IMG/VR virus record: IMGVR_UViG_3300032334_001433
Location: 1 to 64,000 of that record
DNA: 64,000 nt
Source of the DNA: a virus
Strand: one strand, 5' to 3'
The position numbers were made by a program, and so were the translations under genes. This document shows, one piece after another, positions 1 through 20,603 of the stretch. The notes under the pieces were generated by a model that searched no databases, was not told where the DNA came from, and saw only the letters and a program-made list of their open reading frames with translations. Positions within the stretch are counted from its first letter, which is position 1. Every line of letters starts with the position of its first letter.

Positions 1-159
1 GGTAATCAAGGTAACAGTGGCGCCGGTGGTTCCGGTGTAGCAATTATTCGTTTACCTGCAGCATATTTTGCATCAAATACAACAGGATCTCCTAACTTAA
101 GTATTGTAGGTGGATATAACATATATACATTTAAGAGTTCTGGTACAATAACATTCTAA
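1..159 (+). CDS. Glycine-rich adhesin-like protein, C-terminal fragment
   Basis: The last 52 codons of a gene that starts upstream of the window. The visible part has the exit strand of the glycine-rich body (GGSGVAIIRLP), a linker with the TTGSPNLS motif, and the family terminus GGYNIYTFKSSGTITF. The same ending closes most of the next genes, so this is a member of the same tandem paralogue family. The next gene begins seven bases after its stop codon, with no Shine-Dalgarno sequence. The N-terminus cannot be judged. Confidence 0.8.
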   Translation, partial: GNQGNSGAGGSGVAIIRLPAAYFASNTTGSPNLSIVGGYNIYTFKSSGTITF

Positions 160-165
160 AATAAT

Positions 166-996
166 ATGACTTTCTCGTTTCAAAATCTTAGTTATACAGG
201 AAAATTCACATTTTTACCTGGTCCAATACCACCTCCAATAATTGATTATTTGGTTGTTGCTGGAGGTGGAGGCGGGGGCGGCACTGGCAATGACGGTAAC
301 GGCGGCGGAGGTGGCGCCGGCGGGTTTGTAATGGGGACAACGTCAGTTACTTCAGGATACACATTAAATATTTCAATAGGTGCAGGCGGCGCCGTTGCTG
401 CAAACGGTGTTGATTCAACTTTACAATTATCTGGATCATTGACTATTACTTCATTAGGTGGCGGCGGCGGTCAACAATATGGCATTGGTAATAGTGGTGG
501 ATCGGGTGCTGGAACGTCAAGGGTTGCAGATCGCGGCGGCTATGGATTACAGCCAGCAAGTGCCAGTGGCGGCTATGGTAACGATGGTGGTGCTTCCAGT
601 AGCGGATACTATGTTACTGGCGGCGGTGGTGCCGGTGCTGCTGGATCAGGATATCCTGGCGCAGGCGGCGCTGGTAAAGAATGGCCGGTTGGTTCTGGAA
701 CATACTATGCAGGTGGTGGCGCCAGCTGGTATGCAATGGGTGGTTCCGGCGGCGGTGGTAACGGGGCTCTTCAAGTTGGTAATAACACTGGCCAAAACGG
801 CGTAGCAAATACTGGCGGCGGCGGTAGCGTAGGCACAAATAACGGGGCTGAGGGCCGCGGCGGATCTGGTGTTGTTATCATTCAATATCTTGAGGGATAC
901 CCGCCCGCCGCAAATACAACTGGTTCACCTACAATAACTGTTTCTGGCGGATATAGAACATATAAATTTACAAGTACCGGTACAATAACATTCTAA
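166..996 (+). CDS. Glycine-rich domain adhesin-like virion protein
   Basis: A 276-residue protein in four parts: an N-terminal tag (MTFSFQNLSYTGKFTF, residues 1-16), a Pro linker (18-24), an entry strand DYLVVAGGGGGG (27-38), and a body in which G-rich runs alternate with short hydrophobic strands (for example YTLNISIGAGG). It then has an exit strand GVVIIQY and the terminus GGYRTYKFTSTGTITF. This is the glycine-rich domain common in marine and freshwater phage tail proteins. Glycine-rich motifs also occur in the T2/S16-type gp38 receptor-binding adhesins. Host-surface recognition is inferred from that resemblance and from the lectin-like neighbours; nothing in the sequence proves binding. 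The opposite strand carries long Pro/Ala-rich frames that are only artefacts of GGN codons. Confidence 0.8.
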   Translation: MTFSFQNLSYTGKFTFLPGPIPPPIIDYLVVAGGGGGGGTGNDGNGGGGGAGGFVMGTTSVTSGYTLNISIGAGGAVAANGVDSTLQLSGSLTITSLGGGGGQQYGIGNSGGSGAGTSRVADRGGYGLQPASASGGYGNDGGASSSGYYVTGGGGAGAAGSGYPGAGGAGKEWPVGSGTYYAGGGASWYAMGGSGGGGNGALQVGNNTGQNGVANTGGGGSVGTNNGAEGRGGSGVVIIQYLEGYPPAANTTGSPTITVSGGYRTYKFTSTGTITF

Positions 997-1003
997 AATA
1001 ATT

Positions 1004-1909
1004 ATGCCCATTTCTTTTCAAAATATTAACTATCAAGGCAATTTTACTTTTACAACTGGGCCATCACAGGTATCCAGCCCGTCAACTGTAGAATACTTAG
1101 TTATAGCCGGCGGTGGCGGTGGAGGTGGCGGCACAACTAGTCCCGGCGGGTCGGGCGGCGGCGCCGGCGGTTATAGAACAGCTACTGGATTTTCTGTTAC
1201 TCCAGGGGCAAACATAGTAATTACTGTTGGATCTGGCGGTACTGCTGGAACAGGAACATCGCCAATTGCGACTAAAGGAAGTGATTCAATATTTAGTACT
1301 ATTACTTCTACAGGCGGTGGAGCCGGCCAACATTATAATCAAACATTCAATTCTGCAATACATAGTGGTGGCTCAGGCGGCGGCGCATTTTGGAATTTTG
1401 GAACAGCTGGAACTGGTAATACGCCTAGTACAAGCCCAAGTCAAGGAAACGACGGTGGCCCAGCAGGCGGTGGTGGCGCAACTCAGGCAAGTTCTGGTGG
1501 CGGAGGAAGTAGCGCAGTAGGTGGGCAATCTACTGGGTCGGCCGGTGGAGCTGGAGGTAATGGTACTGCATCCTCAATTTCTGGTACTTCCACTACATAC
1601 GCTGGCGGCGGTGGCGGCGGCGCAGGCATTAATAGCACGTTAGGTGCCGGTGGTTCTGGAGGCGGCGGCAGCGGTGGGGCCACCTACGGCAATGGATCGG
1701 ACGGATCCACTAATACCGGAGGCGGTGGTGGCGGTGCAGGCGAAGAACAAAATGGTACTCGTACTGGAGGCAATGGTGGTTCGGGTATTGTAATTATACG
1801 TTATGCAGATTCTTATGCGGCAGCGACAACAACAGGATCTCCTAACGTAACAGTTGCCGGTGGTTATAGAGTATATAAATTTACAAATTCCGGCTCAATA
1901 ATTTTCTAA
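1004..1909 (+). CDS. Glycine-rich domain adhesin-like virion protein
   Basis: 301 residues with the tag MPISFQNINYQGNFTF, entry strand VEYLVIAGGGGGGGG, a single glycine-rich body, the exit strand GIVIIRYADSY, and the terminus GGYRVYKFTNSGSIIF. Ser and Thr are more frequent between the glycine runs than in the upstream copy, so the exposed turns differ while the frame strands are kept. The start lies 8 nt after the previous stop with no recognisable ribosome-binding site. Probably a virion surface protein; the specific ligand is unknown. Confidence 0.78.
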   Translation: MPISFQNINYQGNFTFTTGPSQVSSPSTVEYLVIAGGGGGGGGTTSPGGSGGGAGGYRTATGFSVTPGANIVITVGSGGTAGTGTSPIATKGSDSIFSTITSTGGGAGQHYNQTFNSAIHSGGSGGGAFWNFGTAGTGNTPSTSPSQGNDGGPAGGGGATQASSGGGGSSAVGGQSTGSAGGAGGNGTASSISGTSTTYAGGGGGGAGINSTLGAGGSGGGGSGGATYGNGSDGSTNTGGGGGGAGEEQNGTRTGGNGGSGIVIIRYADSYAAATTTGSPNVTVAGGYRVYKFTNSGSIIF

Positions 1910-1910
1910 A

Positions 1911-2831
1911 ATGATTACGTTCAATAATATTTCATCTTCAGGTAGTTTTAATTTTAATGTTACTACATTAGGGCCAACTGCCCCTTCGTCTGTAGACTAT
2001 TTGGTCGTAGCAGGTGGTGGCGCTGGCGGATATGGAATACAAAACTATTCTGACGGGGGCGGTGGAGGCGCTGGTGGACTATTACAAGCAACCGGGGCAG
2101 CTATAACTCCAAGTGTAACTTATACAATTACTATTGGTGCAGGCGGCGCGCAAAGTTCTTGGACCAATGGATCAAATTCTGTTATTTCAGGATCGGGGTT
2201 TACGACTGTTACTGCGGTTGGCGGAGGAAAAGGAACAGATACTCGTTATTATGGAACAGCCGCTGGTAACGGTGGAAGCGGCGGCGGAACATATGGTACT
2301 GCTGCTGGAGCAGTTGGTAAAGGTATTTATCCCGGTTCAACGTATATAGATGCACCTAGACAAGGATATGATGGGGCAGATAGTGGATCACCGGGATATC
2401 CTTATCCTACAGGCGGTGGTGGCGGTGCAGGCGGCGCCGGATTAACTGGTTCTGGATCTGTGGGTGGATCGGGTGGACCTGGTTTATATTCTACAATATC
2501 TGGTTCAAATGTTGCTTACGCTGGCGGCGGTGGTGGATCAGTAGTTCAAGGTTCGGGATATCTAAGTACCGGCGGTGTAGGTGGGGGTGGCCGAGGCGGC
2601 TCGCCCGGCCTTGCTGAGGCAGGTACTATAAATACAGGCGGTGGCGGTGGCGGTGGTGGCGGTACAGTATCTTCTCCTGCAGCGGGTGGGGATGGAGGTT
2701 CTGGTATTATAATTATCCGTTATGCTGATTCTTACAATGCTGCTTCAAGTACAACAGGTTCTCCAAACGTAACAGTGGCGGGTGGTTACCGAGTATACAA
2801 GTTCACAAGTTCTGGTTCAATAACTTTCTAA
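1911..2831 (+). CDS. Glycine-rich domain adhesin-like virion protein
   Basis: 306 residues; tag MITFNNISSSGSFNF, entry strand VDYLVVAGGGAGG, and the terminus GGYRVYKFTSSGSITF. One base separates the start from the upstream stop (TAA-A-ATG), so translation most likely depends on coupling to the upstream reading frame. Compared with neighbours, the middle contains Tyr/Pro-rich inserts (GYPYPTGG, PGSTYIDAPRQGYDG), which are candidates for the variable, ligand-facing part. Confidence 0.78.
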   Translation: MITFNNISSSGSFNFNVTTLGPTAPSSVDYLVVAGGGAGGYGIQNYSDGGGGGAGGLLQATGAAITPSVTYTITIGAGGAQSSWTNGSNSVISGSGFTTVTAVGGGKGTDTRYYGTAAGNGGSGGGTYGTAAGAVGKGIYPGSTYIDAPRQGYDGADSGSPGYPYPTGGGGGAGGAGLTGSGSVGGSGGPGLYSTISGSNVAYAGGGGGSVVQGSGYLSTGGVGGGGRGGSPGLAEAGTINTGGGGGGGGGTVSSPAAGGDGGSGIIIIRYADSYNAASSTTGSPNVTVAGGYRVYKFTSSGSITF

Positions 2832-2837
2832 ATAAAA

Positions 2838-4538
2838 ATGTTTACTTTTAATAATTTTAATGTTACTGGTAATTGGTCTGCAATTAGTTCGCAATACATC
2901 GGACCACCTACCGCCGTTGAATACTTAGTTGTTGCTGGTGGTGGCGGCGGCGGTGGATCTGTTGCTGGTGGTGGCGGTGCTGGCGGATTTTTAACAGCAG
3001 CCAATTTATCTGTTTCTACTGTTGATACGTATACAATTAATATTGGTGCTGGCGGTGCTGGCGGCGCAAATAAATATTTTGGATCAAATGGTTCAAATTC
3101 TTATATTAGTGCAAGTGGAAGTAATCTTATTATTGCAGTAGGTGGTGGATACGGTTCGGCAGGTAATGATACCAGTATAAATGGTGGGGCATGGAATGCT
3201 GGATCTGGAGGTTCTGGTGGTGGCGGTACAAATATTGTTGGAAGATTGGGAAATCCAGGTTCTGGCATTGTTGGTCAAGGTTATGCAGGCGGTGCAGGAT
3301 TTAATAGTAGTTCAGCTGGTTATACTGGCGGTGGAGGCGGCGCTGGTGGCGTGGGAGTAGCTGGAGATGGAACCACTGCAGGCGCTGGCGGCCCCGGTAG
3401 ATATTCCACATTAAGCGGAGCAAATGTTGCTTATGCTGGCGGGGGCGGTGGTGGTCAAAATGGCCTGGGCGGCGTCGGTGGAGGCGGAGTAGGTGGAGAT
3501 ACTGCACCAACCGCAGGTACAACTAATACAGGTGGCGGCGGCGGTGGTGGAAATGGATATGCGGCGGGCACAGGTCGAGCAGGAGGCTCTGGCATAATTA
3601 TCATACGTTATCCTACAAGTTATTCTCCTGCAACAAACACAACAGGTTCTCCAAATGTAGTTTATGCTGGCGGTAATGTAAGTTACATATTTACACAATC
3701 TGGTTCAATATCTTGGACAATTCCTTTTACTCTAGAGTATTTAATTGTTGCTGGAGGCGGAGGCGGCGGTGATAGCGAGAGTGGTGTTAACGCTTCCGGT
3801 GGCGGTGGAGGCGCGGGTGGTTTATTATCAAATGCAACTGCGTTTAGTGCATCTTTTGGAACTACATACACCGTGACTATTGGTGGAGGTGGCGCGGGAA
3901 GACGTTCATATGCTCGAGGAGCATCTGGAAACGCATCATCATTTAGTTCAATAAGCACAGTTGGTGGTGGTGGTGGCGGCACCAGCGGACAAAATAGTGG
4001 CGCAGGCGGTAATGGATTATCTGGTGGATCCGGCGGCGGGGGCGGTTATTATTCAAATGGCGGCGCTGGAACAACTGGTCAAGGGAACGCCGGTGGCTCA
4101 TTTTATACAGGTGTATGGATTGCTTCCGGAGGCGGCGGCGCCGGCCAAGCAGGCCAAGCAGGCGGAAGTTATGTTAGTGGCGGTGCCGGAGGTGCCGGTC
4201 TTTATTATACTATATCTGGAGCAAATGTTGCGTATGCTGGCGGTGGCGGTGGCGGCGCATATATGGACGCATCAGGAGGCGGTGGAGCGGGTGGCGCAGG
4301 TGGAGGCGGTAATGGAGCAAAAAATGGTGTGGGCGGCGATGCAACAACTAATACTGGCGGTGGCGGTGGCGGCGGCGCCGGAGGAAATGGTGGAGGAAAC
4401 GGCGGATCTGGTATAGTTATACTTCGTCATCCAGATACAATTCCTGCAGCAGCAAACACAACTGGATCTCCTAACGTAACGGTAGCTGGTGGTTACAGAG
4501 TATATAAATTCACAAGTTCTGGCACAATAACTTTCTAA
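2838..4538 (+). CDS. Two-module glycine-rich adhesin-like protein
   Basis: 566 residues made of two complete glycine-rich modules. The first starts with the tag MFTFNNFNVTGNWS. Near residue 290 the usual family terminus becomes an internal linker, NVSYIFTQSGSISW followed by TIPFTLEYLIVAGGGG. The second module then runs to GGYRVYKFTSSGTITF. At 3700-3740 the stop/start junction seen between neighbouring genes is replaced by an in-frame SGSISW-x-IPF joint, so this looks like a fusion of two adjacent family members. The same architecture recurs at 13686 and 17132. A virion surface role is inferred. Confidence 0.8.
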   Translation: MFTFNNFNVTGNWSAISSQYIGPPTAVEYLVVAGGGGGGGSVAGGGGAGGFLTAANLSVSTVDTYTINIGAGGAGGANKYFGSNGSNSYISASGSNLIIAVGGGYGSAGNDTSINGGAWNAGSGGSGGGGTNIVGRLGNPGSGIVGQGYAGGAGFNSSSAGYTGGGGGAGGVGVAGDGTTAGAGGPGRYSTLSGANVAYAGGGGGGQNGLGGVGGGGVGGDTAPTAGTTNTGGGGGGGNGYAAGTGRAGGSGIIIIRYPTSYSPATNTTGSPNVVYAGGNVSYIFTQSGSISWTIPFTLEYLIVAGGGGGGDSESGVNASGGGGGAGGLLSNATAFSASFGTTYTVTIGGGGAGRRSYARGASGNASSFSSISTVGGGGGGTSGQNSGAGGNGLSGGSGGGGGYYSNGGAGTTGQGNAGGSFYTGVWIASGGGGAGQAGQAGGSYVSGGAGGAGLYYTISGANVAYAGGGGGGAYMDASGGGGAGGAGGGGNGAKNGVGGDATTNTGGGGGGGAGGNGGGNGGSGIVILRHPDTIPAAANTTGSPNVTVAGGYRVYKFTSSGTITF

Positions 4539-4544
4539 ATAAAA

Positions 4545-7500
4545 ATGTTTACTTTACAAAATCTATCTTCTACCGGAAATTTTTATATTACGCAAGTAAA
4601 TATTCCTCCGCCATCTGACGTATACTTTAAATATGTTACAATGTTATTGCATGGCAATGGCGGAAACGCAGCACCATTTAATAAAGATTCAAGTACAAAC
4701 GCATTTCCATTAACTATTGTTGGAGATACCAAACCTTCAATTATTAATCCGTATCAAGATGGATATTATAGTAATTATTTTAACGGTAGCACGGATTATT
4801 TAACCGTACCAAGTAATGCAGCGTTTGGTGTTGGCACTGGCGATTTTACTTGGGAGGCGTGGATTTATCCAACTAGTTGGCCATCTGCAGGCAATTATTC
4901 ATGTTTAATGCAAGTTGGTAGTACAGGTTTATATTTAGGTTTAAATTCAGCTGGTTTTGGTTTAAGACAGTCTGGCACCGCAAACATTATTTCTTACGGA
5001 ACAAATCCAACAATAAACACATGGACACATATAGCAATCACCCGAAGCGGGACAACTTGTACATTATACTACAATGGTTTATCTGTTGCGACCGCAACTA
5101 GTGCCGCAAACTTTGCCTCTAGTAGTGTATGGATTGGGGCAGATGCTACACCCGGAAACTATTATAGTGGATATTTGTCTAATATGCGTTTGGTTAAAGG
5201 CACAGCAGTTTACACATCAACATTTACGCCGCCAACTACGCCATTAACAGCAATTACTAATACAAGTTTATTAACTTGCCAAAGTAGCAGGTTTAAAGAT
5301 AACAGTACAAACGCATTTACTATTACACCATCTGGTTCTCCAACAATATCTCAATTACAAATACCATTTACTGCTCCTACGTATACTTATGGTAGTGGAT
5401 ACTTTGATGGTACAGGGGATTACTTATCTACGCTACAAAATGCAGCATTTAATTTTGATACAGGTGCATTTACTGTTGAAGCATGGGTATACTATACAGG
5501 TACTCCTGTAAATTCAAGGATCGTTGGACTTGGTAATGGTGCCGTTGGCGGTAGCACATATACAGGATGGACATTAAATATCAACAGTTCTTTGACATCC
5601 ATAAATTGGTATAGATATGATGGTAGTACTGAAACTAATTTGAGCGCATCTTATACATTCTCACTTAATACTTGGTATCATGTTGTCGCGGCGCGTAATG
5701 GATCAGGTAATCTGTCAATGTATGTAAATGGTGCACGGGTATATAATAATGCAAGTGCTTCTGTAGCCTACAATAATATAAATTCAGATCCTTTGTATAT
5801 TGGTGCCGTCTATGACGGGTCTGGCGGCAGCAACAGTTGGAAATACTTCTCAGGTTATATATCTGATGTTAGACTGGTAAAAGGATCAACTACATACGAT
5901 CCAACATCGTCAACTTTAACAGTTCCAACGGCACCATTAACCGCAGTAGCAAATACATCGTTACTAACATTACAAACAAACGGGCCAGTAACAAATAATC
6001 TATTCTTAGATTCATCTATAAACAACTTTACTATTACTCGCAACGGCAATTCTACACAGGGAACATTCAGCCCGTACGATGTTAGTTGGTCTAATTACTT
6101 TGATGGTAGTAGTACTTATTTTTCGGTTCCAACTAATTCAAACTTGCATCTAGAAACTGCTTCAGTTTTCACAGTAGAAGCATGGATATACATTACTGGA
6201 ATACCATCAGGTGCATCACAATTAACCATTGTTGGTAATAGAAGCGGTATAAGCGTAAGTGGTTGGGAATTTAGAGTTAGTACTTCAAGAACATTGCAAT
6301 TTTATTATACAGGCAATGCAACGTCTAACACAAATTCTTCTGATGTATTAGCATACAATACTTGGTATCACGTTGCTTTAGTAAGAAACTCTGGAACTGT
6401 TCAAATTTTTATTAACGGAGTATTATCTGTAACTAATAATTCTATTACAAACGGAACATTAAATTCAACTGCGCTTACTATTGGTTGTGAGGGAACAGAT
6501 ACAACATCTATATTTCAAGGAAATATTTCAAATTTAAGAATTGTTAATGGTACGGCATTATATACATCTGCTTTTACAGCCCCAGCATCGCAATTAACCG
6601 CAATTACTAATACGGCGTTACTTACTTGCCAAAGCAATAGATTTATTGACAACAGTACAAACGCATTTGCTATAACAACTACAGGTTCCCTTTCAGTAGA
6701 AAGTTTTAGTCCGTTTGCACTTACAACGGCATATAATACTAGCGTTATTGGCGGATCTGCATACTTTGATGGTACAGGGGATTACTTAAGCATACCAAAT
6801 AATACTGCATTTAAACCCGGGGCATCTACAAATCCATTCTGTATTGAATGTTGGATTTATCCAACTGCAACTCCTGGATCAAATTTTGCAGTGCTTGGCA
6901 ATTATACCGTTGTGTCTTATCCAACAAGTACCAATGGTTTTGATATTATTACAAATTCATCGAATCAATTAGCATTTAGATGGGGGTATCCAAACTATAT
7001 TGATTCTGGTAATAGTGCAGCGATGTCATTGAATACATGGAATCATGTTGCTGTTTGTAGAAACTCAAGCGGATCGTTATCGTGTTATCTCAATGGTACC
7101 CGCTGGTTTAATTCATCTAGCAATACATCTACAACCGACGGAACAGCATCAAGTTTTTGGATAGGATGGGCAGGCAGTTTATCTGGGTCAACTATTAATC
7201 CTTTTACCGGCTACATATCAGATACCAGATTGGTAAAAGGATCGACCCCATATGATCCTACGTCAACAACTTTAACAGTTCCGGTTATCCCATTGACCCC
7301 AATAGCAAACACATCTTTATTATGTAACTTTACAAATGCAGCAGTTGTTGATAATTCGCAATTAAATAATTTAGAGACTGCTGGTAACGTACAAATAAAT
7401 ACGACTATTACAAAATTTGGTACAGGATCAATGTATTTTGATGGAGTTAGTAATTATTTAAGAATACCATACAACCAATCATTAAATTTTGGCAAAGGCG

Positions 7501-7976
7501 ACTTTACAATTGAATTTTGGTTATACCCTACAAGTAATGCGGCAAGCGAAAGTTATATTATGACTGCAGGCCCGGCAGGAGCCGGCGCTGTTAATAGAGG
7601 ATGGAGATTGTCGAGTAATATTGGTACAACATCTGGTATTTATTTTGCGCCGTTGGGTGCAGGGAATGAAATAAAATTAGGTAATTACCCATCATCTAAT
7701 TCATGGCATCATGTGGCAATTGTTAGATCAAATACAACTATTACTGGATATGTAGATGGTGTTGCATTAGGAACGACAATAAATGTAGGGGCAAATACTA
7801 TTACTGATATTACAACTGGAGACTTCTCATACGTCGGAGCGTTACATAATACAGGTGGTGTTGGACGATTATTTTATACCGGGTATTTAGACGATTTGCG
7901 TATCACCAAAGGTATCGCAAGATATTCAAATACCTTTACTATACCAACAACAGTTTTCCCCGACATTGGACCATAG
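4545..7976 (+). CDS. Five-domain LamG/concanavalin-like lectin virion protein
   Basis: 1,143 residues. After the array tag (MFTLQNLSSTGNF, 1-13) come five LamG-like jelly-roll domains. Each is marked by YFDG(T/S)xDYL, then (D/A)FTxEAWxYPT, then (N)TWxHxAxxRxG, then a strand with SGYxSNxRLVKGTAxYT, and separated by repeats of LTAITNTSLLTCQSxRFxDNSTNAFxIT. The five domain cores lie near residues 75-230, 285-450, 515-680, 745-905 and 965-1130. The last domain ends in LDDLRITKGIARYSNTF and PDIGP. LamG/ConA folds usually bind carbohydrate, so a glycan-binding tail protein is likely. The shared tag links it to the glycine-rich proteins although the bodies are unrelated. Confidence 0.82.
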   Translation: MFTLQNLSSTGNFYITQVNIPPPSDVYFKYVTMLLHGNGGNAAPFNKDSSTNAFPLTIVGDTKPSIINPYQDGYYSNYFNGSTDYLTVPSNAAFGVGTGDFTWEAWIYPTSWPSAGNYSCLMQVGSTGLYLGLNSAGFGLRQSGTANIISYGTNPTINTWTHIAITRSGTTCTLYYNGLSVATATSAANFASSSVWIGADATPGNYYSGYLSNMRLVKGTAVYTSTFTPPTTPLTAITNTSLLTCQSSRFKDNSTNAFTITPSGSPTISQLQIPFTAPTYTYGSGYFDGTGDYLSTLQNAAFNFDTGAFTVEAWVYYTGTPVNSRIVGLGNGAVGGSTYTGWTLNINSSLTSINWYRYDGSTETNLSASYTFSLNTWYHVVAARNGSGNLSMYVNGARVYNNASASVAYNNINSDPLYIGAVYDGSGGSNSWKYFSGYISDVRLVKGSTTYDPTSSTLTVPTAPLTAVANTSLLTLQTNGPVTNNLFLDSSINNFTITRNGNSTQGTFSPYDVSWSNYFDGSSTYFSVPTNSNLHLETASVFTVEAWIYITGIPSGASQLTIVGNRSGISVSGWEFRVSTSRTLQFYYTGNATSNTNSSDVLAYNTWYHVALVRNSGTVQIFINGVLSVTNNSITNGTLNSTALTIGCEGTDTTSIFQGNISNLRIVNGTALYTSAFTAPASQLTAITNTALLTCQSNRFIDNSTNAFAITTTGSLSVESFSPFALTTAYNTSVIGGSAYFDGTGDYLSIPNNTAFKPGASTNPFCIECWIYPTATPGSNFAVLGNYTVVSYPTSTNGFDIITNSSNQLAFRWGYPNYIDSGNSAAMSLNTWNHVAVCRNSSGSLSCYLNGTRWFNSSSNTSTTDGTASSFWIGWAGSLSGSTINPFTGYISDTRLVKGSTPYDPTSTTLTVPVIPLTPIANTSLLCNFTNAAVVDNSQLNNLETAGNVQINTTITKFGTGSMYFDGVSNYLRIPYNQSLNFGKGDFTIEFWLYPTSNAASESYIMTAGPAGAGAVNRGWRLSSNIGTTSGIYFAPLGAGNEIKLGNYPSSNSWHHVAIVRSNTTITGYVDGVALGTTINVGANTITDITTGDFSYVGALHNTGGVGRLFYTGYLDDLRITKGIARYSNTFTIPTTVFPDIGP

Positions 7977-7977
7977 T

Positions 7978-10017: not shown

Positions 10018-10032
10018 AATGTTTTCTTTTCC

Positions 10033-10938: not shown

Positions 10939-10943
10939 TTTAA

Positions 10944-12128: not shown

Positions 12129-12162
12129 TCGGATATCAATTAATTTATCACAAGGAGATAAA

Positions 12163-12510
12163 ATGTCGCATTTTGCAAAAGTAGAAGATGGTATTGTAAC
12201 ACAAGTAATCGTAGTAGAGCAAGACGTTATTAATACTGGTTTATTCGGAGACCCAGAATCTTGGGTACAAACATCATATAACACATACGGTGGCGAGCAT
12301 CGTAATGGTGGCACGCCTTTGCGTAAGAATTATGCAGGTATTGGTTACAGTTATGATTCTCAAAGAGACGCATTTATTGCACCAAAACCATTTGCAAGCT
12401 GGGTTCTAGATGAGAGCACTTGCATTTGGAACGCCCCTGTTACTATGCCTACAGAAGGTGGTCCTTACAGATGGGATGAGGAAACAGTTAATTGGGTAGC
12501 AGTTAGCTAA
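12163..12510 (+). CDS. Conserved phage virion-associated protein
   Basis: 115 residues starting MSHFAKVEDGIVTQVIVVEQ. The ATG at 12163 is preceded by AAGGAG, the only strong Shine-Dalgarno sequence in the adhesin array, and it excludes a longer frame from 12070 that overlaps the previous gene. The sequence (FGDPESWVQTSYNTYGGEHR, NYAGIGYSYD, PFASWVLDE) matches a small protein family found beside tail-fibre genes in many marine phages. Its molecular role is unknown; a small structural protein or fibre accessory is the best guess. Confidence 0.75.
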   Translation: MSHFAKVEDGIVTQVIVVEQDVINTGLFGDPESWVQTSYNTYGGEHRNGGTPLRKNYAGIGYSYDSQRDAFIAPKPFASWVLDESTCIWNAPVTMPTEGGPYRWDEETVNWVAVS

Positions 12511-12521
12511 AGAGAACGCAT

Positions 12522-12854
12522 ATGGCAATAACGTATAAAGTTTTGGGGCAAGCCGCCCCAGCTGCAACCACAAATACTGTACTATATACTGTACCTGCAT
12601 ATATGAGTGCGGCGACATCTACGTTATCCATATGCAATCAAAATGCTACCGATGCAAGATTTCGTGTAGCTGTACAGCCTGCAAATGCATCTATACAGTT
12701 TAAACATTATATTGCATATGATACAATTTTACCCGCATATGAAACCATTTCATTAACTATAGGGATGACATTGGCAACTACGGATGTAGTTACCGTGTAT
12801 GCAAACACAACAAATATTAGTTTTAATTTATTTGGGTCAGAGATTAATACATGA
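12522..12854 (+). CDS. Small beta-domain virion protein
   Basis: 110 residues, all one domain: ITYKVLGQAAPAATTNTVLY, TLSICNQNATDARFRVAVQP, then TTNISFNLFGSE. It is clearly paralogous to residues 1-112 of the gene at 10944, which carries a glycine-rich module behind the same domain. The free-standing form may occupy the same virion position. The stop overlaps the next start (ATGA at 12851-12854), so the two are translationally coupled. Confidence 0.78.
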   Translation: MAITYKVLGQAAPAATTNTVLYTVPAYMSAATSTLSICNQNATDARFRVAVQPANASIQFKHYIAYDTILPAYETISLTIGMTLATTDVVTVYANTTNISFNLFGSEINT

Positions 12855-13681
12855 CCTTAAGACGATATAGTACTACTAAAGTTAGCCGGTCACGAGTTTT
12901 TTCGACGTCCGGCACAACTACTAGTAATAACGTAAGTCGTCAGATGAGAATAGATTATTTAATTGTTGCTGGCGGCGGTGGCGGAGGCGGCAATCCTAGC
13001 ATAGATTCTGATAGAGATGGCGGTGGCGGTGCTGGCGGGCTTGTTATGGGATCCGTCGCTGCAAGTAAATTTGGAATAGGAACAGCAATATCTATACAGA
13101 TTGGAACTGCAGGAACAACATCTACTTCCCCAACTGCGGGCAGTGATAGTTATTTAGGTCCTGTAATTGCGTATGGTGGGGGCAAAGGTGGATATTTTGG
13201 TTCCAATGCCGGCACAGGCGGTTCTGGAGGTGGGTCGGGAAGAAATTCAAGTCCTGCAGGAAAAACTCAAATAAGTTATCCGGAATATGGTGGGACTGGA
13301 TTTGGTAACGCAGGCGGCGGCCAAGGAGATGGAATATTTGCATCTTCCGCAGGTGGTGGCGGTGGTGCTTTAGGTCCTGGTGGATTTTCTGGTGGCAATT
13401 CTGGTGGTTTAGGAATGGTATCAACTATTACTGGATCTGCAGTAACATATGCAAGCGGAGGCAGGGCAGGATCATTAATAACATATCCAACAAATACTGG
13501 TTCTGGGGGCAGTGTCCAACCATATGGTGGCACGACTCAACCAACAGATGGTATTGTGATAGTAAGACATTTGGCATCGTACCCTCAAGCAACAACTACT
13601 GGTTCTCCAACAATAACAATATATGGTAATTATATAATTTACACGTTTACGAGTTCTGGCTCAATAACATTCCCGGGATAG
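12851..13681 (+). CDS. Glycine-rich domain adhesin-like protein lacking the usual tag
   Basis: 276 residues. The first 33 residues are basic and Ser/Thr-rich (TLRRYSTTKVSRSRVFSTSG) instead of the QN-x-G tag. The glycine-rich module then begins at RIDYLIVAGGGGGGG and ends in a divergent terminus, GNYIIYTFTSSGSITFPG. Because it is coupled by ATGA overlap to the upstream beta-domain protein, the two products could act as a pair, with the beta domain supplying the docking role that is fused in the 10944 protein. That is an inference from gene order. Confidence 0.75.
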   Translation: MTLRRYSTTKVSRSRVFSTSGTTTSNNVSRQMRIDYLIVAGGGGGGGNPSIDSDRDGGGGAGGLVMGSVAASKFGIGTAISIQIGTAGTTSTSPTAGSDSYLGPVIAYGGGKGGYFGSNAGTGGSGGGSGRNSSPAGKTQISYPEYGGTGFGNAGGGQGDGIFASSAGGGGGALGPGGFSGGNSGGLGMVSTITGSAVTYASGGRAGSLITYPTNTGSGGSVQPYGGTTQPTDGIVIVRHLASYPQATTTGSPTITIYGNYIIYTFTSSGSITFPG

Positions 13682-13685
13682 AATA

Positions 13686-15353
13686 ATGTCAATCATTTTT
13701 AACAATATAAGTATTTTTGGTAATTTATCTGTAGTAACACCTTACATACAATTGGCTCCAAGCACTGTTGAATACTTAGTTGTAGCTGGCGGCGGTTCTG
13801 GTGGTTATGGTAACGGTGGAGGAGGCGGCGCTGGAGGATATCTTGCAAATGTTGGATATTCGGTAAATACTACTGGAATTTATACTATAACCGTTGGAGC
13901 TGGAGGATCATCTTATTCTTCTGGTTCAAATTCTGTTTTGTCTGGAGCAATAACAGTAACAGCAATTGGTGGCGGTAAAGGTGGTTCTAGTGCAGGTGGA
14001 ATTAACGGAATAGGTGGTGGTTCTGGCGGCGGCGGCGCTAGACAAAGTGGAACTGCTGGTAGCGGAACTTCTGGGCAAGGAAATGCTGGAGGTGTTGGGT
14101 CGAGTGGAGATTTTTCTGGCGGTGGAGGTGGTGGCGCCGGCGGAGTTGGTGGTGGTGGTAGCAGCGGCACCTCTGGTGCTGGTGGCGCAGGATTATATTC
14201 TACAATATCTGGTTCAAATGTTGCTTACGCAGGTGGCGGTAGTGGTGGTAGTTATGGATTGTCTGTAGGTTCTGGCGGTATTGGTGGTGGTGCTACCGGC
14301 ACTAATTCAAGTACAAAACCAACCGGTGCTACTCAAAATACAGGCGGCGGCGGTGGTGGCGCAGGATATTCTGGTTCGGAAGTTTCTACTTTGAGCGGAG
14401 ATGGAGGTTCTGGTGTTGTAATCATACGTTATCCATCTGATTATAAATTAGCAACATCAACGACAGGTTCTCCAAACGTAGTAACATCTGGCGGCAATGT
14501 AAGTTACATATTCACACAATCTGGTTCAATATATTGGGGCAACCCACCTTCTCTTGAGTATTTAGTTGTTGCTGGCGGCGGCGCAGGCGGCGGATCTTAT
14601 CTAGGCGGCGGCGGCGGCGCCGGCGGATATGTGACCGGAACATCTTTAAGTACAACTTTTGGTGCTACTATTACTATTACTGTTGGCGCCGGAGGAACTG
14701 GAGTATTAACAAATAATGGCGGATATGGATCAAATTCTGTTATTATAGGAGCCAACACAATTACAAGTATTGGTGGCGGTGGCGGTGGCTCCGGAGGTTC
14801 TTCAGGCGGAACACAAAGTCCAGGCAATCCTGGTGGTTCTGGTGGTGGTTCTACAGGATATTATACAGGCGCCGGCGGCGCAGGTACCTCAGGCCAAGGA
14901 AATAACGGTGGTACAGGAGCCACGTACGGCGCTGGCGGAGGCGGTGGCGCAGGCGCAGCCGGTAGTGCTGGTACTAGTGTCAATGGCGGCAATGGTGGTA
15001 TAGGATTATATTCCACTATTTCTGGAGCAAATGTTGCGTATGCCGGCGGTGGCGGGGGTGCAGCATATACAGGGACAAAAGGCACCGGTGGCACTGGCGG
15101 CGGCGGTGACGGAGAAGCGTATGGTGGCACTCCTGCGGCTGTAACAGGAACATCGAACACGGGCGGAGGTGGCGGTGGTGGCGGCGGGTATGGCGGACAA
15201 ACTGCTGGTGGAAATGGTGGATCGGGTGTTGTTATACTGCGATATCTTGATTCTGGTCCAGCGCCGGCATCCACAATAGGTTCACCAAACGTAACTGTTA
15301 CTGGTGGTTATAGAATATATAGATTCTGGCAATCCGGTTCAATAACTTTCTAA
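13686..15353 (+). CDS. Two-module glycine-rich adhesin-like protein
   Basis: 555 residues. Tag MSIIFNNISIFGNLSVVT; first glycine-rich module, then a joint near residue 280 (GGNVSYIFTQSGSIYW, then NPPSLEYLVVAGGG), and a second module ending GGYRIYRFWQSGSITF. The joint matches that of the 2838 gene almost residue for residue, while the module bodies differ, so the joint is a conserved recombination point or a structural hinge. Probably a virion surface protein. Confidence 0.8.
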   Translation: MSIIFNNISIFGNLSVVTPYIQLAPSTVEYLVVAGGGSGGYGNGGGGGAGGYLANVGYSVNTTGIYTITVGAGGSSYSSGSNSVLSGAITVTAIGGGKGGSSAGGINGIGGGSGGGGARQSGTAGSGTSGQGNAGGVGSSGDFSGGGGGGAGGVGGGGSSGTSGAGGAGLYSTISGSNVAYAGGGSGGSYGLSVGSGGIGGGATGTNSSTKPTGATQNTGGGGGGAGYSGSEVSTLSGDGGSGVVIIRYPSDYKLATSTTGSPNVVTSGGNVSYIFTQSGSIYWGNPPSLEYLVVAGGGAGGGSYLGGGGGAGGYVTGTSLSTTFGATITITVGAGGTGVLTNNGGYGSNSVIIGANTITSIGGGGGGSGGSSGGTQSPGNPGGSGGGSTGYYTGAGGAGTSGQGNNGGTGATYGAGGGGGAGAAGSAGTSVNGGNGGIGLYSTISGANVAYAGGGGGAAYTGTKGTGGTGGGGDGEAYGGTPAAVTGTSNTGGGGGGGGGYGGQTAGGNGGSGVVILRYLDSGPAPASTIGSPNVTVTGGYRIYRFWQSGSITF

Positions 15354-15359
15354 ATAAAA

Positions 15360-16181
15360 ATGGCATTCATATTCACAAATCTCAATTTTGGCGGTACAAT
15401 TTCAGTAACTGCTCCTAGTTTGGTATCTCCAATTGTAGAATACTTAGTTGTTGCTGGCGGAGGATCTGGCGGTGGACCTGGTAGTTCGAGCGGAGCAGGT
15501 GGAGGTGGAGCAGGAGGTTTACTTTTATCCAATGTAATCGGATATTATGGAGTTACTTATACAATAACGGTTGGTGGGGGAGCATCAGGTGGCGCTGGGA
15601 CAAACGCTGCAGGATCTAATGGATCAAATTCTTCAATTACATCATCATCAACAACAAGTGTTATAGCCCTTGGCGGCGGATATGGATCGTTATTTCCAAA
15701 TGGTGGAGATGGTGGTTCTGGTGGCGGAACTTCTGGTAACGGGTCATACTATCCTGGCAGAGGCGGATATGGTACAGCTGGCCAAGGAAATAATGGTGCG
15801 GTTGGTACTGGAACACTAACAAGCGGCGCCACAACAGGTGGCGGTGGCGGCGGTGCGGGCGGTGCCGGTAGTACAAACAGTTCGGGTGGTTCTGGTCTTA
15901 GTAATAGTATTACAGGGTCGTCTGTTACATATGCTGCAGGCGGCGCTGGCGGTAGCAGCGGTGGCGGTACTGGTTCTGCAGGTGGATCTAATACAGGTAA
16001 TGGAGGAGCAGGTTGCGGTGGTGGCGGCGGTACTGGAGCAGCGGGTGGTTCTGGTATTGTAGTTCTTCGATATGCAGATTCAAATCCAGCGGCAGCAAAC
16101 ACAGTAGGTTCACCAAATGTAACTGTTACCGGCGGTTATAGAATATATAGATTCTGGCAATCTGGAACAATAACTTTTTAA
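15360..16181 (+). CDS. Glycine-rich domain adhesin-like virion protein
   Basis: 273 residues; tag MAFIFTNLNFGGTISVTAP, entry strand VEYLVVAGGGSGGG, and the terminus GGYRIYRFWQSGTITF. The nucleotide sequence of the last 20 or so codons is almost the same as the end of the preceding gene, so the homology is kept at DNA level as well as protein level. The spacer upstream is TAAATAAAA, without a Shine-Dalgarno sequence. Confidence 0.78.
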   Translation: MAFIFTNLNFGGTISVTAPSLVSPIVEYLVVAGGGSGGGPGSSSGAGGGGAGGLLLSNVIGYYGVTYTITVGGGASGGAGTNAAGSNGSNSSITSSSTTSVIALGGGYGSLFPNGGDGGSGGGTSGNGSYYPGRGGYGTAGQGNNGAVGTGTLTSGATTGGGGGGAGGAGSTNSSGGSGLSNSITGSSVTYAAGGAGGSSGGGTGSAGGSNTGNGGAGCGGGGGTGAAGGSGIVVLRYADSNPAAANTVGSPNVTVTGGYRIYRFWQSGTITF

Positions 16182-17126
16182 ATGTTTACCTTTCAAAATC
16201 TTAGTTTTGCTGGAACTTGGTCTGCCGTAGGATTGCCCAGCGCAGCCACTGCTCCGTCAACTATAGATTATTTGGTTGTAGCTGGAGGTGGAGGCGGTCC
16301 GGGTGCATACTATGGAGGTGGTGGTGGCGCTGGAGGTTTACGTTCTACAGTAACAACAACCGGCGGCGGAGGAAATCTTGAATCTCAGTTATCAGTTGTT
16401 GCTAGTACAACATATAATATAACTGTAGGCGCAGGTGGAACCGCCGGTGGATCTGGCAACGCTGGTAATAATGGTTCAAATTCATCTATAATTGGAGGAG
16501 CAGTCAATATAGTATCCTTGGGTGGTGGCGGAGGGCAGTTCTATTTAACTGGTGCGCCTGCCGGCCAAGGTGGTTCTGGTGGTGGCGCCGGGTCTGGTTC
16601 TACATATAGTATTTTGGGCACAGCAAATCAAGGATATAACGGTGGCACAGGCGGAGGTGGCGGTGGTTCTACGGGTGCTGGCTCTGGTGGTGGGGGCGGT
16701 GGTGGCGCTGGAGGCGTTGGTGGCAACGGGGTAAATAATGGATATCCTAGTGGTACTGGTGGCTCAGGCGGTCCAGGAATATACACTACTATTAGCGGAG
16801 CAAATGTTGCATATGGTGGCGGCGGTGGCGGTGCAGGATATGCAAGTGGAGGGTCTCAAACTTATCCAGGCGGTGTAGGTGGCGGCGGTGTAGGTGGAGC
16901 CGGCGGTTCTTCTGCTACTGCAGGTACGGCAAATACTGGGGGTGGCGGAGGCGCCGATGATGGTCATGCATTTACTACAGGTAAAGATGGAGGTTCCGGT
17001 ATAGTTATCATCCGCTATTCTAGTTCTTATAATGCGGCATCTGCTACAACAGGTTCACCAAACGTAACTGTTACTGGTGGTTATAGAATATACCAATTCA
17101 CGAGTTCTGGCTCAATAACTTTTTAA
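16182..17126 (+). CDS. Glycine-rich domain adhesin-like virion protein
   Basis: 314 residues; tag MFTFQNLSFAGTWSAVG. The ATG directly abuts the previous TAA with no spacer, which implies translational coupling. The module contains an extra strand (NLESQLSVVASTTYNITVG) near residues 68-86 that is also seen in the second module of the 17132 gene (AESVLSVSVGTTYTVTVG). The terminus is GGYRIYQFTSSGSITF. Confidence 0.78.
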   Translation: MFTFQNLSFAGTWSAVGLPSAATAPSTIDYLVVAGGGGGPGAYYGGGGGAGGLRSTVTTTGGGGNLESQLSVVASTTYNITVGAGGTAGGSGNAGNNGSNSSIIGGAVNIVSLGGGGGQFYLTGAPAGQGGSGGGAGSGSTYSILGTANQGYNGGTGGGGGGSTGAGSGGGGGGGAGGVGGNGVNNGYPSGTGGSGGPGIYTTISGANVAYGGGGGGAGYASGGSQTYPGGVGGGGVGGAGGSSATAGTANTGGGGGADDGHAFTTGKDGGSGIVIIRYSSSYNAASATTGSPNVTVTGGYRIYQFTSSGSITF

Positions 17127-17131
17127 ATAAA

Positions 17132-18856
17132 ATGGCATTTACAATTCAAAATCTTATTCTCGGCGGCAATATGCAAACATCGCAGCCTGCCCTTGGTGCA
17201 CCTTCCGCAGTAGAATACTTAGTTGTTGCTGGTGGGGGTGGCGGCAGCGGATCTAATAACGGCGCAGGCCGAACTGCAGGCGGCGGCGCTGGAGGTTTTC
17301 GAACAAGTACAGGATATTCTGTAAACACTTCTGCAACTTATACTATAACCGTTGGGGCGGGCGGCGCAGGCGGAACTACTTATACAAGTTTTCCAGTAAA
17401 AGGCAATAATTCATCTTTCGCTACTATTACTAGTACAGGTGGAGGATATGGTTCAAATGACGGAGACAATGCTGGTACTGGAGGTTCGGGCGGTGGTTCA
17501 TCTTATTCTGGAAGAACTCCTGGATCAGGAAATCAAGGAGGATATTCTCCTGTAGAAGGATATGCGGGTGGAACTGGAACTGGTTCATCCGGTGGCGGCG
17601 GTGGCGGTGCCGGTGCGGTTGGTAGTGACGGAAATGGTGCAGGCAATGCTAGTGGCGGTATTGGTGTATCTTCTTCTATTAGTGGAACTGCTACTTACTA
17701 TGCAGGCGGGGGAGGAGCAGGCGTATATTCAGGAGGATCTGCAGGCGCGGGCGGTCTTGGCGGAGGAGGTAGTGGCGGCGGTTCTGGAGCCAATGGTACA
17801 AGTGGAACTACAAATACTGGAGGCGGCGGCGGTTCTGGAGGTACAAGTGGAGGCAATGGTGGTGCAGGTGGCTCTGGAGTTGTAATCATTCGTTACCCAT
17901 CTGATTATACTGCAGCAATTACCACAACTGGTTTGCCAAATGTAAGTGTAACAGGCGGTTATAGAATATACCAATTCAATAGTTCTGGAACAATATCTTG
18001 GGCCCCGGTCTTATTTATCGAATATTTAGTTGTTGCTGGTGGTGCTAGTGGTGGTTCTCCATATGCTGGAGGCGGCGGTGCAGGTGGATTTAGATCATCA
18101 GTAATTGGCTCTACTAGTGGAGGCGGTGCCAGCGCTGAATCTGTATTAAGTGTAAGTGTAGGAACTACATATACAGTAACAGTAGGTGCAGGTGGAGCAT
18201 CGCTAAATAATACGTCTACTCCTGGAAACAATGGGTCAAATTCAGTATTTGGCACTATTACATCTATTGGTGGTGGTGGAGGCGGTTGGCGATATAGTAG
18301 TGGTTCGGGGTCTAATGGGTCTTCTGGTGGTTCTGGAGGAGGGGCAAACGATAATTACTGGGGTGGTTATAGTTTTACCGGTGGCGCAGGAACAACAGGG
18401 CAAGGATACGCTGGTGGTAGTGGAAGAGCAAGTAGTGGTTTATTAAGTTCTGGTGGTGGTGGAGCCGGTGCTGTTGGTGTAAGTGCTTCTTCAGGAGGTA
18501 CGGGAGGTGCTGGCCAAACAAATCCTATAACTGGAACAGCAACATATTATGCTGGCGGCGGCGGGGGCGGCGCATATACTGGACAAAGTGGTGGCTCGGG
18601 TGGTGTTGGTGGTGGTGGTCGAGGATCAGGCGGCGGGCTGGCTTCTGTTGACGGAACTACAAATACTGGTAGCGGTGGTGGTGGTGGCGGAGACGGAGGA
18701 TATGAAGCATCAGGGGCAGGAGGTTCTGGAATAGTTATTATTCGTTATGCGGACTCAAATGCAGCAGCATCAAATACAATAGGTTCTCCTAATGTAACCG
18801 TTTCGGGTGGTTACAGAGTATACCAATTCACGAGTTCCGGTTCAATAACTTTCTAA
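17132..18856 (+). CDS. Two-module glycine-rich adhesin-like protein
   Basis: 574 residues; tag MAFTIQNLILGGNM, first module, a joint near residue 287 (GGYRIYQFNSSGTISW, then APVLFIEYLVVAGG), and a second module ending GGYRVYQFTSSGSITF. Here the internal joint still carries the GGYRIYQF form used at the ends of single-module proteins. That supports an origin by read-through fusion of two neighbouring genes. Confidence 0.8.
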   Translation: MAFTIQNLILGGNMQTSQPALGAPSAVEYLVVAGGGGGSGSNNGAGRTAGGGAGGFRTSTGYSVNTSATYTITVGAGGAGGTTYTSFPVKGNNSSFATITSTGGGYGSNDGDNAGTGGSGGGSSYSGRTPGSGNQGGYSPVEGYAGGTGTGSSGGGGGGAGAVGSDGNGAGNASGGIGVSSSISGTATYYAGGGGAGVYSGGSAGAGGLGGGGSGGGSGANGTSGTTNTGGGGGSGGTSGGNGGAGGSGVVIIRYPSDYTAAITTTGLPNVSVTGGYRIYQFNSSGTISWAPVLFIEYLVVAGGASGGSPYAGGGGAGGFRSSVIGSTSGGGASAESVLSVSVGTTYTVTVGAGGASLNNTSTPGNNGSNSVFGTITSIGGGGGGWRYSSGSGSNGSSGGSGGGANDNYWGGYSFTGGAGTTGQGYAGGSGRASSGLLSSGGGGAGAVGVSASSGGTGGAGQTNPITGTATYYAGGGGGGAYTGQSGGSGGVGGGGRGSGGGLASVDGTTNTGSGGGGGGDGGYEASGAGGSGIVIIRYADSNAAASNTIGSPNVTVSGGYRVYQFTSSGSITF

Positions 18857-18860
18857 ATAA

Positions 18861-19733
18861 ATGTCGTTTACTATTCAAAACATTATTTTTGGCGGAAATA
18901 TGTTGGCGTTCCAAGCGCCAATAGATCCGCTCATAGTTGAATACTTAGTTGTTGCTGGAGGAGGTGGTGGCGGCGCACGTTATGGCGGCGGTGGAGGTGC
19001 AGGTGGCTATAGAGCCAATACCGGATATTCTGTTTCTACTGGAACACCAATTACTGTTACGGTAGGTGGAGGTGGCAATGGCGGTGCAGTCGGTGCTTAC
19101 AATGCAGGTGTCTCTGGATCAGACTCAGTTTTCGGCACTATTACATCTACGGGCGGTGGCGGTGGCGGTAATGGAGCAAAAAATGGTGGTTCTGGCGGTG
19201 GAGGAAGTTATGATGCTGCATATGGTTTAGGAAATACTCCTGCAACTGTTCCATCACAAGGTAATAATGGCGGATCTGGTATTATAGTATCGGGATGTCC
19301 TAGAGCAGGGGGTGGCGGTGGAGCAGGAGCCGTTGGAGCAGATGCTGTGGGTGGTAATGGAGGTAACGGCGGCGCTGGATTATATTCTACAATAACTAGT
19401 TCAAATGTTGCCTATGCTGGAGGTGGAGGCGGTGGCGTTTATTTAAATGGAACTACTGCAGGAACTGGAGGTGTTGGGGGCGGAGGAAATGCTGGCACCC
19501 CAAATGTTGGAAACGGCAATGCAGGAACAACAAATACCGGTGGCGGCGGCGGTGGCGGAAGTTGGAGCAATACTACAGACACAAGTGGTGGCTCTGGAGG
19601 CTCGGGCATTGTTGTAATTAGTTACGCTAATACATATGGTTACGCAACCAATACAATTGGATCTCCAAACGTAATAACTTCCGGCGGTAATATAATCTAT
19701 AGATTCTGGCAATCAGGTTCAATAACTTTCTAA
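18861..19733 (+). CDS. Glycine-rich domain adhesin-like virion protein
   Basis: 290 residues; tag MSFTIQNIIFGGNMLAFQ, very similar to that of the gene before it, then VEYLVVAGGGGGG. The body has a distinct insert (GIIVSGCPRAGGG) with the only Cys in this copy. The terminus is GGNIIYRFWQSGSITF, mixing the GGN form of the internal joints with the WQSGSITF form of true C-termini. Confidence 0.78.
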   Translation: MSFTIQNIIFGGNMLAFQAPIDPLIVEYLVVAGGGGGGARYGGGGGAGGYRANTGYSVSTGTPITVTVGGGGNGGAVGAYNAGVSGSDSVFGTITSTGGGGGGNGAKNGGSGGGGSYDAAYGLGNTPATVPSQGNNGGSGIIVSGCPRAGGGGGAGAVGADAVGGNGGNGGAGLYSTITSSNVAYAGGGGGGVYLNGTTAGTGGVGGGGNAGTPNVGNGNAGTTNTGGGGGGGSWSNTTDTSGGSGGSGIVVISYANTYGYATNTIGSPNVITSGGNIIYRFWQSGSITF

Positions 19734-19739
19734 ATAAAA

Positions 19740-20603
19740 ATGTTTACTTTTCAAAATTTTAATGTCAGTGGACCGTTTTCTGTTTATGGCGGACCTCCGC
19801 CAGGCCCACCCGGAAGCATAGAATACTTAGTTGTTGCAGGTGGTGGCGGAGGTGGAAGTGCAACTACTAATAATACTGGTATGGGCGGTGGAGGTGCTGG
19901 CGGATACAGATCCAATACCGGATATTCTGTTTCTGCCGGATCAGCAATAACAGTTACAGTCGGTGCTGGAGCGGCGGCAGGTGGATATAACGGACAAGAT
20001 TCGATATTTGGAACTATTACTTCTACTGGTGGTGGTGGCGGCGGTACTTATCTTGGCGCAGGTGGATACGGCGGCAAAAGCGGTGGTTCGGGAGGTGGTG
20101 GTTCTGGGTATGGAACATTAACTCCTGGTAGTGGCACTTCTGGACAAGGAAATTCTGGTGGTTCTGGATACGCTTCGGGTAATGGATCTGGAGGCGGCGG
20201 TGGCGGCGCGGGTGCTGTTGGTGGTATAGGAACTGGCTCGGGCGGCGTTGGAGGTGTAGGGATATCTTCTTCAATATCTGGCACATCATCATACTATGCA
20301 GGCGGTGGTGGCGGTGGTGGCGATGGAGCCGGCGGCGGCGCTGGCGGCACAGGAGGTGGTGGAGGAGGTGGTGCAGCATCAAATGGTTCAACCGCAACTT
20401 CAGGAACAACAAATACTGGCGGTGGAGGCGGAGGTGGTTATTACTATTCTGGTGTGGGCGGCGCAGGCGGCTCGGGTGTAGTTATTATTCGTTATTTAGA
20501 TTCATATACTGCTGCTTCAAATACAACAGGTTCTCCTAATGTAACCGTTTCGGGTGGTTACAGAGTATACCAATTCACAAGTTCTGGTTCAATTACGTTT
20601 TAA
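19740..20603 (+). CDS. Glycine-rich domain adhesin-like virion protein, last of the array
   Basis: 287 residues; tag MFTFQNFNVSGPFSVYG, a Pro-rich linker (GGPPPGPPGS), entry strand IEYLVVAGGGGGG and terminus GGYRVYQFTSSGSITF. It closes the uninterrupted tandem array. Only 50 bases, holding a T4-type late promoter, separate it from the giant fibre gene downstream. Confidence 0.78.
   Translation: MFTFQNFNVSGPFSVYGGPPPGPPGSIEYLVVAGGGGGGSATTNNTGMGGGGAGGYRSNTGYSVSAGSAITVTVGAGAAAGGYNGQDSIFGTITSTGGGGGGTYLGAGGYGGKSGGSGGGGSGYGTLTPGSGTSGQGNSGGSGYASGNGSGGGGGGAGAVGGIGTGSGGVGGVGISSSISGTSSYYAGGGGGGGDGAGGGAGGTGGGGGGGAASNGSTATSGTTNTGGGGGGGYYYSGVGGAGGSGVVIIRYLDSYTAASNTTGSPNVTVSGGYRVYQFTSSGSITF

Follow-up and report, generated by a model that had tools for sequence, protein, structure and literature searches.

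What is a near-gapless run of adhesin-like genes, taken in an earlier note for a repertoire of recognition proteins, doing in a single phage, when one or a few tips usually account for the host range of a phage? The question is raised by the left part of the stretch of DNA analysed here (the window), i.e., bases 1-64000 of the 202,665-bp virus record IMGVR_UViG_3300032334_001433 of IMG/VR; the record and its genome are coded G000 in the comparisons. The answer that we favour, with a probability of about 0.7, is that the array represents a co-translated cluster of interchangeable receptor-recognition tips, which would share a common docking peptide and be diversified by cassette exchange at conserved joints.

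Extent of the array and type of phage

In the window, positions 166-20603 hold 17 intact co-directional open reading frames (ORFs) plus the tail of one gene cut at base 1; the co-directional, near-gapless arrangement described earlier was thus borne out, even if the original count of 16 genes plus one cut has to be raised to 17 plus one in the window and to 21 in full. The intact ORFs comprise 13 glycine-rich proteins (16 modules), the two multi-domain LamG proteins already recognized (with five and three domains), and two genes, at 12163-12510 and 12522-12854, that are not adhesin-like, so that the adhesin character attributed to all of the about 17 genes holds for the first two groups only.

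The first 123 bp of the record are identical to its last 123 bp and, judging from this overlap, the molecule is circular or circularly permuted. The overlap, together with the array genes located at the far end of the record, indicates that the left "cut" is the end of the record: the gene thought to be truncated by the window edge continues at the other end, where the array goes on over the last ~4.9 kb, on the other side of the junction. The full array encompasses 21 genes (A1 to A21) over ~25.4 kb of one strand, with spacers mostly of 0-7 nt between adhesin genes, and consists of 16 glycine-rich genes (19 modules), three LamG genes (11 domains), and two small non-adhesin genes (A13 and A14); it is flanked by giant fibre-like genes of a T4-like phage. 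Despite the 123 identical bases at both ends, the record is not marked circular in IMG/VR-style classing, and windows cut at the end of a record with overlapping ends split genes artificially.

The T4-like core genes of G000 include those for gp23 (PF07068, E 2.6e-144), primase, thymidylate synthase, NrdA/B, exonuclease, and DNA ligase. The closest named matches of the primase share only ~40-43% identity and come from Pelagibacter, Methylophilales, and Synechococcus T4-like phages; given this distance and the three phage groups involved, no host is assigned to G000, which probably infects lake bacteria.

A tag on different folds and the joints between genes

A typical protein of the array begins with a short N-terminal tag, from which a proline-rich linker leads to the entry strand EYLVVAGGGG; then come ~210 core residues, the motif VVIIRY, and a constant end. 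In the core, variable segments separate invariant glycine clusters. The conserved entry strand and the C-terminus GGYRxYxFxSSGSITF are as the earlier note gave them, and the variable inner loops and conserved ends that it reported are reflected in the mean column entropy of the aligned array proteins (0.70 for the entry strand, 1.40 for the core, and 0.80 for the C-terminus). The Pfam family Gly_rich_2 (PF21722) scored above its curated cut-off in 6/6 glycine-rich array proteins scanned, and a six-frame Gly_rich_2 search of the phage's own record listed most of the modules.

The conserved ends, however, are not the whole of the constant part, which is mainly the N-terminal tag; this is present on the LamG proteins as well and had gone unnoticed. 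Its consensus, M-x-[TS]-[FIL]-[QN]-N-[FLI]-x-x-x-G-x-[FWM], covers ~15 residues. A profile trained on 13 glycine-rich array genes only was scored against 2,598 candidate starts, and it assigned 20-27 bits to the LamG array proteins of G000 and of a relative, G003 (contig IMGVR_UViG_3300027782_000046, with an array at the same place, whose genes are labelled B), and 29.5 bits to an RCC1-propeller protein encoded at the corresponding locus in a further relative, G006. Beyond the tagged array genes and this RCC1 protein, the next scores were at most 16.4. In G000, the tag is common to 16 adhesins (13 glycine-rich and three LamG genes), and its occurrence on three unrelated folds would be hard to explain save by a common docking or assembly site. 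A1, A12, and A14 carry a phrog_1276-like domain in place of the tag, and the N-terminus of A15 is of its own type, which recurs in other contigs. Moreover, the arrays of other phages have different tags, each shared within its own array.

RCC1-type propeller proteins were also observed at L020:7880-8995 and 17486-19906, one of them bearing the tag of the G000 array; two of the L020 RCC1-type proteins have another tag (YYGGLISAT...SASGIF), resembling those on glycine-rich proteins of other phages.

As for the joints, 104 of the 127 positions of repeated 31-mers in the G000 array fall in the last 150 nt of genes, which represent 12% of the array, and 7/127 fall in spacers. The longest exact repeats (51 nt in G000 and 56 nt in G003) lie at a gene end or extend across an end, the spacer, and the next start. 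Synonymous codon agreement at the C-terminal end is 0.553 vs. 0.415 expected; this homogenisation is weak at the entry strand and slight in most of the interior. The location of the repeats at the joints and the codon homogenisation of the C-terminal ends fit homologous recombination at the joints.

The same repeats might have led metagenome assemblers to join unrelated modules, as both genomes were assembled from metagenomes and have repeated joints. We regard such an artefact as extremely improbable, since the longest exact repeats are shorter than typical reads, the two records come from different metagenomes and keep the same order of conserved genes, and the interiors are too different to be confused. 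A diversity-generating retroelement was rejected: no RVT_1 (reverse transcriptase) match was retrieved from the whole G000 record, and the differences are whole-module blocks.

Shine-Dalgarno sites were found at 2/21 array starts and at 22 of 31 other genes, hand-chosen from the ORF list for comparison (p = 1.3e-5). The array starts devoid of such sites suggest that these genes may be translationally coupled; this, in turn, would imply that a module swapped in frame at a joint stays translated.

Exchange and origin of the modules

The genes of the array, with the gene at its downstream boundary (F1), are the following:

A1: far end of the record; fusion gene with a phrog_1276-like domain, 354 aa
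A2: far end of the record; LamG adhesin with 3 LamG domains, 694 aa
A3: far end of the record; glycine-rich, 298 aa
A4: 1..159 (3' end) and L008:19152-20000 (5' part), plus strand; glycine-rich adhesin, 294 aa once the two parts are merged over the 123-bp overlap
A5: 166..996, plus strand; glycine-rich adhesin, 276 aa, with a module (242-888) also present in a distant phage
A6: 1004..1909, plus strand; glycine-rich adhesin, 301 aa, identical to the G003 protein
A7: 1911..2831, plus strand; glycine-rich adhesin, 306 aa, interior partly diverged with respect to G003
A8: 2838..4538, plus strand; two-module glycine-rich adhesin, 566 aa, corresponding to two single-module genes in G003, with a module moved
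A9: 4545..7976, plus strand; tagged LamG adhesin with 5 LamG domains, 1143 aa
A10: 7978..10017, plus strand; tagged LamG adhesin with 3 LamG domains, 679 aa
A11: 10033..10938, plus strand; glycine-rich adhesin, 301 aa
A12: 10944..12128, plus strand; phrog_1276-like N-terminal domain fused to a glycine-rich module, 394 aa
A13: 12163..12510, plus strand; phrog_7759 protein of ~116 aa, proposed fibre/adhesin assembly chaperone, with a real Shine-Dalgarno site
A14: 12522..12854, plus strand; phrog_1276-like protein, 110 aa
A15: 12851..13681, plus strand; glycine-rich adhesin of 276 aa whose N-terminus differs from the others, with synteny in both G003 and G006
A16: 13686..15353, plus strand; two-module glycine-rich adhesin, 555 aa, carrying other modules in G003
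A17: 15360..16181, plus strand; glycine-rich adhesin, 273 aa, with no separate gene in G003
A18: 16182..17126, plus strand; glycine-rich adhesin, 314 aa, 98.9% nt identity to G003
A19: 17132..18856, plus strand; two-module glycine-rich adhesin, 574 aa, second module related to the second module of B16 in G003
A20: 18861..19733, plus strand; glycine-rich adhesin, 290 aa, without an orthologue in G003
A21: 19740..20603, plus strand; glycine-rich adhesin, 287 aa, structure predicted
F1: 20654..26953, plus strand; repetitive fibre-like protein, 2099 aa

An invariant array in a related genome was the outcome that the earlier note had named as contrary to its proposal; the G003 array is not invariant, differing by gain and loss, module replacement, relocation, and a deletion scar. 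The core genes adjoining the array share 89-99% DNA identity between G000 and G003, and A1, A5, A6, A11, A12, and A18 are 97-99% identical. With respect to G003, A8, A16, and A19 keep their tags (0.96-1.00) and ends (0.85-0.94), their cores being near the background of unrelated modules (0.55). The first module of A8 resides in a different G003 gene (93% aa identity), A21 corresponds to the tag of B20 followed by the module and end of B21, and B16 joins the A16 tag to the A17 end in one gene; the LamG gene A9, with its five domains in G000, has three in G003. Moreover, A2-A3-A4 are missing from G003, where a 227-bp remnant stands in their place; it reads in turn the A2 start, A3, A4, and the A4 end, with a frame shift, and this chimeric scar points to the loss of A2-A4 there. 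In G006, whose primase is 80% identical, the same flanking fibre genes and A13-A14-A15 are present, and the place of a dozen G000 genes is taken by just the RCC1 protein and a single glycine-rich gene. The comparison with these two relatives indicates that the size of the array is variable and that a simple scaffold is shared.

Such variability might also be expected if the array were a largely neutral by-product of its repeated ends, recombination at the joints adding and deleting modules of which only one or two genes are functional. The G003 scar is one clear wreck, G006 manages with just three genes of the tagged or glycine-rich kind at this locus, and joints without Shine-Dalgarno sites may entail low expression. 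However, 21/21 reading frames of G000 and all intact G003 genes are open, several genes are 97-99% identical in protein across phages whose core DNA differs by up to 11%, and the tag and the end remain constant while the interiors change, which makes this explanation quite improbable.

As to where the modules come from, the genes had been called paralogues, and a family likeness does exist; the module cores of G000, however, are ~50% identical to each other, about as close as they are to the modules of unrelated contigs, with A3/A4 as the sole pair resembling a recent duplication (69%). A simple recent tandem duplication of the array was rejected on these grounds. The A5 module shares 92.6% aa and 88.1% nt identity over 216 codons with an internal part of a 3,040-aa protein encoded on contig G018, a phage whose major capsid protein gp23 is only 34% identical to that of G000. 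The similarity starts at the entry strand, the preceding 90 nt being at chance level (7-8/30 just before it). By these figures, the A5 module is shared horizontally, in one direction or the other, with a distant phage and is cut at the module borders.

Predicted fold, assembly, and function

The structure predicted for A21 has a predicted local distance difference test score (pLDDT) of 91 and a predicted template modelling score of 0.88, residues 1-20 being lower (pLDDT 68-74). Its best match in the PDB is the fibre of cyanophage Pam3 (7ypx_A, probability 1.00, E 3e-3, template modelling score (TM) 0.36-0.40), followed by a tail-tip chain of Bxb1. The sequence profile of the module placed the Pam3 fibre first too, with a weak score (E 0.03, fibre residues 102-163); a sequence search of the PDB with a single module gave no useful match, and no gp38 structure was among the PDB matches of the A21 model. 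In BFVD, the model matched glycine-rich proteins of tailed phages, including one of Pelagibacter phage HTVC025P.

The A13 model (pLDDT 94) was searched separately and has as its best PDB match chain a of 7ypx (probability 0.99, E 3e-2, TM 0.39), which, with its 162 residues, is as long as chaperone gp25 is stated to be. A13 is in single copy in G000 and belongs to phrog_7759, a family of unknown function present in >300 viral contig stretches; of 80 loci that A13 alone retrieved, 51 have a glycine-rich or LamG gene no more than 300 bp from the homologue. A tblastn search of named phages with a glycine-rich module retrieved none, probably owing to the low-complexity filter, and named isolates were reached via LamG, A13, and A14 protein searches: in HTVC025P, an A13 homologue follows a 538-aa protein, shortly past the tail fibre gene, and in Pontimonas phage phiPsal1, the A14 homologue is annotated as a putative virion structural protein. 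A14 is predicted to be a small structural protein, accessory rather than an adhesin. The modelled fold of A13 and the position of its homologues beside adhesin genes in most of the 80 loci suggest that phrog_7759 is probably a widespread fibre/adhesin chaperone family, which would thus gain a likely role; taken together, the predicted module fold and the A13 data support adhesins encoded with an assembly factor. The repertoire for recognition proposed at the outset agrees with the variability of the array and with the fold and family evidence, which fits a receptor-binding tip, but it did not arise by simple tandem duplication and it includes A13 and A14 as accessory genes.

These matches can be compared with known systems. 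Fibre gp24 of Pam3 and its chaperone gp25 (PDB 7YPX; PMC9608196) resemble the G000 proteins in that recognition is assigned to a glycine-rich domain containing a long -GGGGxGG- motif and in the chaperone-like gene beside the adhesin gene, both partners being, independently, the best PDB matches. The Pam3 tip combines a TNF-like with a glycine-rich domain, a fold that A21 may share. Pam3, however, has a single fibre gene, whose product docks through helices at its N-terminus, whereas the ~19 adhesins of G000 bear a short tag, and docking helices are not predicted; the A21 model contains no helix that would match the long N-terminal alpha-helical shaft by which a Pam3-type fibre docks to the baseplate, nor does A13 have the helical domain through which gp25 trimerises. 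The gp38 adhesins of T2/S16/PP01-type phages (PMC6851490, PMC12892980) belong to phages of T4-like background as well and combine a constant scaffold of polyglycine (PGII) helices with hypervariable loops, which in T-even phages decide the receptor (PMC12892980); the invariant glycine motifs and variable segments of the array may be their equivalent. In contrast to the many genes and ~210-residue modules of G000, there is one gp38 per phage, mounted on gp37 via three Trp-bearing helices; among the array tags, tryptophans are few and no helix is predicted that could correspond to this attachment, and the A21 model has no such helices. In haloarchaeal hafunaviruses (PMC8651126), a glycine-rich adhesin gene followed by a small gene lies in a hypervariable region, and the adhesin type tracks host range; each virus, unlike G000, has one adhesin.

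Several receptor-binding proteins with short shared N-terminal docking peptides are known from K1-5, G7C, and Klebsiella phage K64-1, whose 11 depolymerases are counted, in the paper on it, among the most elaborate sets of receptor-binding proteins, and C-terminal parts are swapped between relatives (PMC6872550). A short N-terminal peptide common to otherwise unlike adhesins occurs likewise on the glycine-rich and LamG proteins of G000 and on the RCC1-type protein of G006; the proteins of those phages, however, are for the most part depolymerase spikes, trimeric and mounted on gp10-like adapters, and G000 has another fold and more tips. No array of comparable kind was found in the open-access literature, which does not prove that none has been published. 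The members of the array are of known kinds (glycine-rich and LamG adhesins); what sets this one apart is the scale, the tag across folds, and the documented cassette traffic.

The proteins could instead be virion surface decorations (e.g., of the capsid or along the tail), acting as general stickers to polysaccharides, mucus, or particles and not as host-range determinants. The same LamG domains are found in several PHROG families whose annotation is that of structural proteins of head and packaging, and LamG and glycine-rich modules occur inside giant proteins of other phages as well. Nonetheless, the array sits between fibre-like genes, its best solved homologue is a tail fibre, the relative of A13 resembles a tail-fibre chaperone, and a homologous pair in HTVC025P comes directly after the annotated tail fibre gene; we therefore hold surface decoration to be unlikely.

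According to the favoured reading of interchangeable recognition tips, the tag probably docks the adhesins at one shared site, either of a long fibre or of the baseplate, and the recognition module would be either glycine-rich (similar to Pam3 gp24 and S16 gp38) or LamG lectin-like, A13 probably helping the glycine-rich modules to fold. Homologous recombination at the constant joints (the C-terminal end with the spacer and the next tag start, and the tag/module boundary) would swap, fuse, duplicate, and delete modules, and new repertoires may arise through the import of modules from other phages as well.

Some points weigh against this reading. The PDB fold matches of A21 and A13 are weak by both E-value and TM-score, and PHROGs class the module family, phrog_2295, as of unknown function. 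The evidence for exchange comes mostly from two near genomes, G000 and G003. Furthermore, we infer the presence of the proteins in virions, the docking through the tag, the chaperone role of A13, receptor binding, and the effect on host range for an array known from metagenome sequence.

If the reading is right, ~19 clustered tips with one tag, module exchange, and sharing between distant phages would offer a concrete route to fast changes of host range without a retroelement or an inversion switch, and the tag would predict which proteins use the same docking site. A bolder version, which we consider possible but doubtful, is that of a self-renewing repertoire, in which single or sibling virions show up to ~19 tips on one type of docking site, the joints have evolved as recombination sites, and tips are traded across deeply diverged T4-like lineages, distinct from both diversity-generating retroelements and invertible fibres.

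Other genes of the window, outside the array, are worth mentioning. Downstream of it, a glycine-rich ORF with a short Gly_rich_2 match (26923-27771) has a G003 counterpart that is for the most part unrelated (26% aa), and a 528-aa protein (28290-29876) keeps its N-terminus and is only 70% identical to its G003 counterpart; the latter is perhaps another exchangeable tip. A homing-endonuclease-like protein, whose best PHROG is labelled NAD synthetase, is encoded at 39214-39612, near the site of relatives' adhesin genes. The gene at 40386-41144 starts with MIITGG..., like the tags of other phages' arrays, and the adjacent one (41145-41876) codes for a LamG protein with the N-terminus MIIQN...; in a relative, L101, an array lies at the place corresponding to 40386-41876 of the window.

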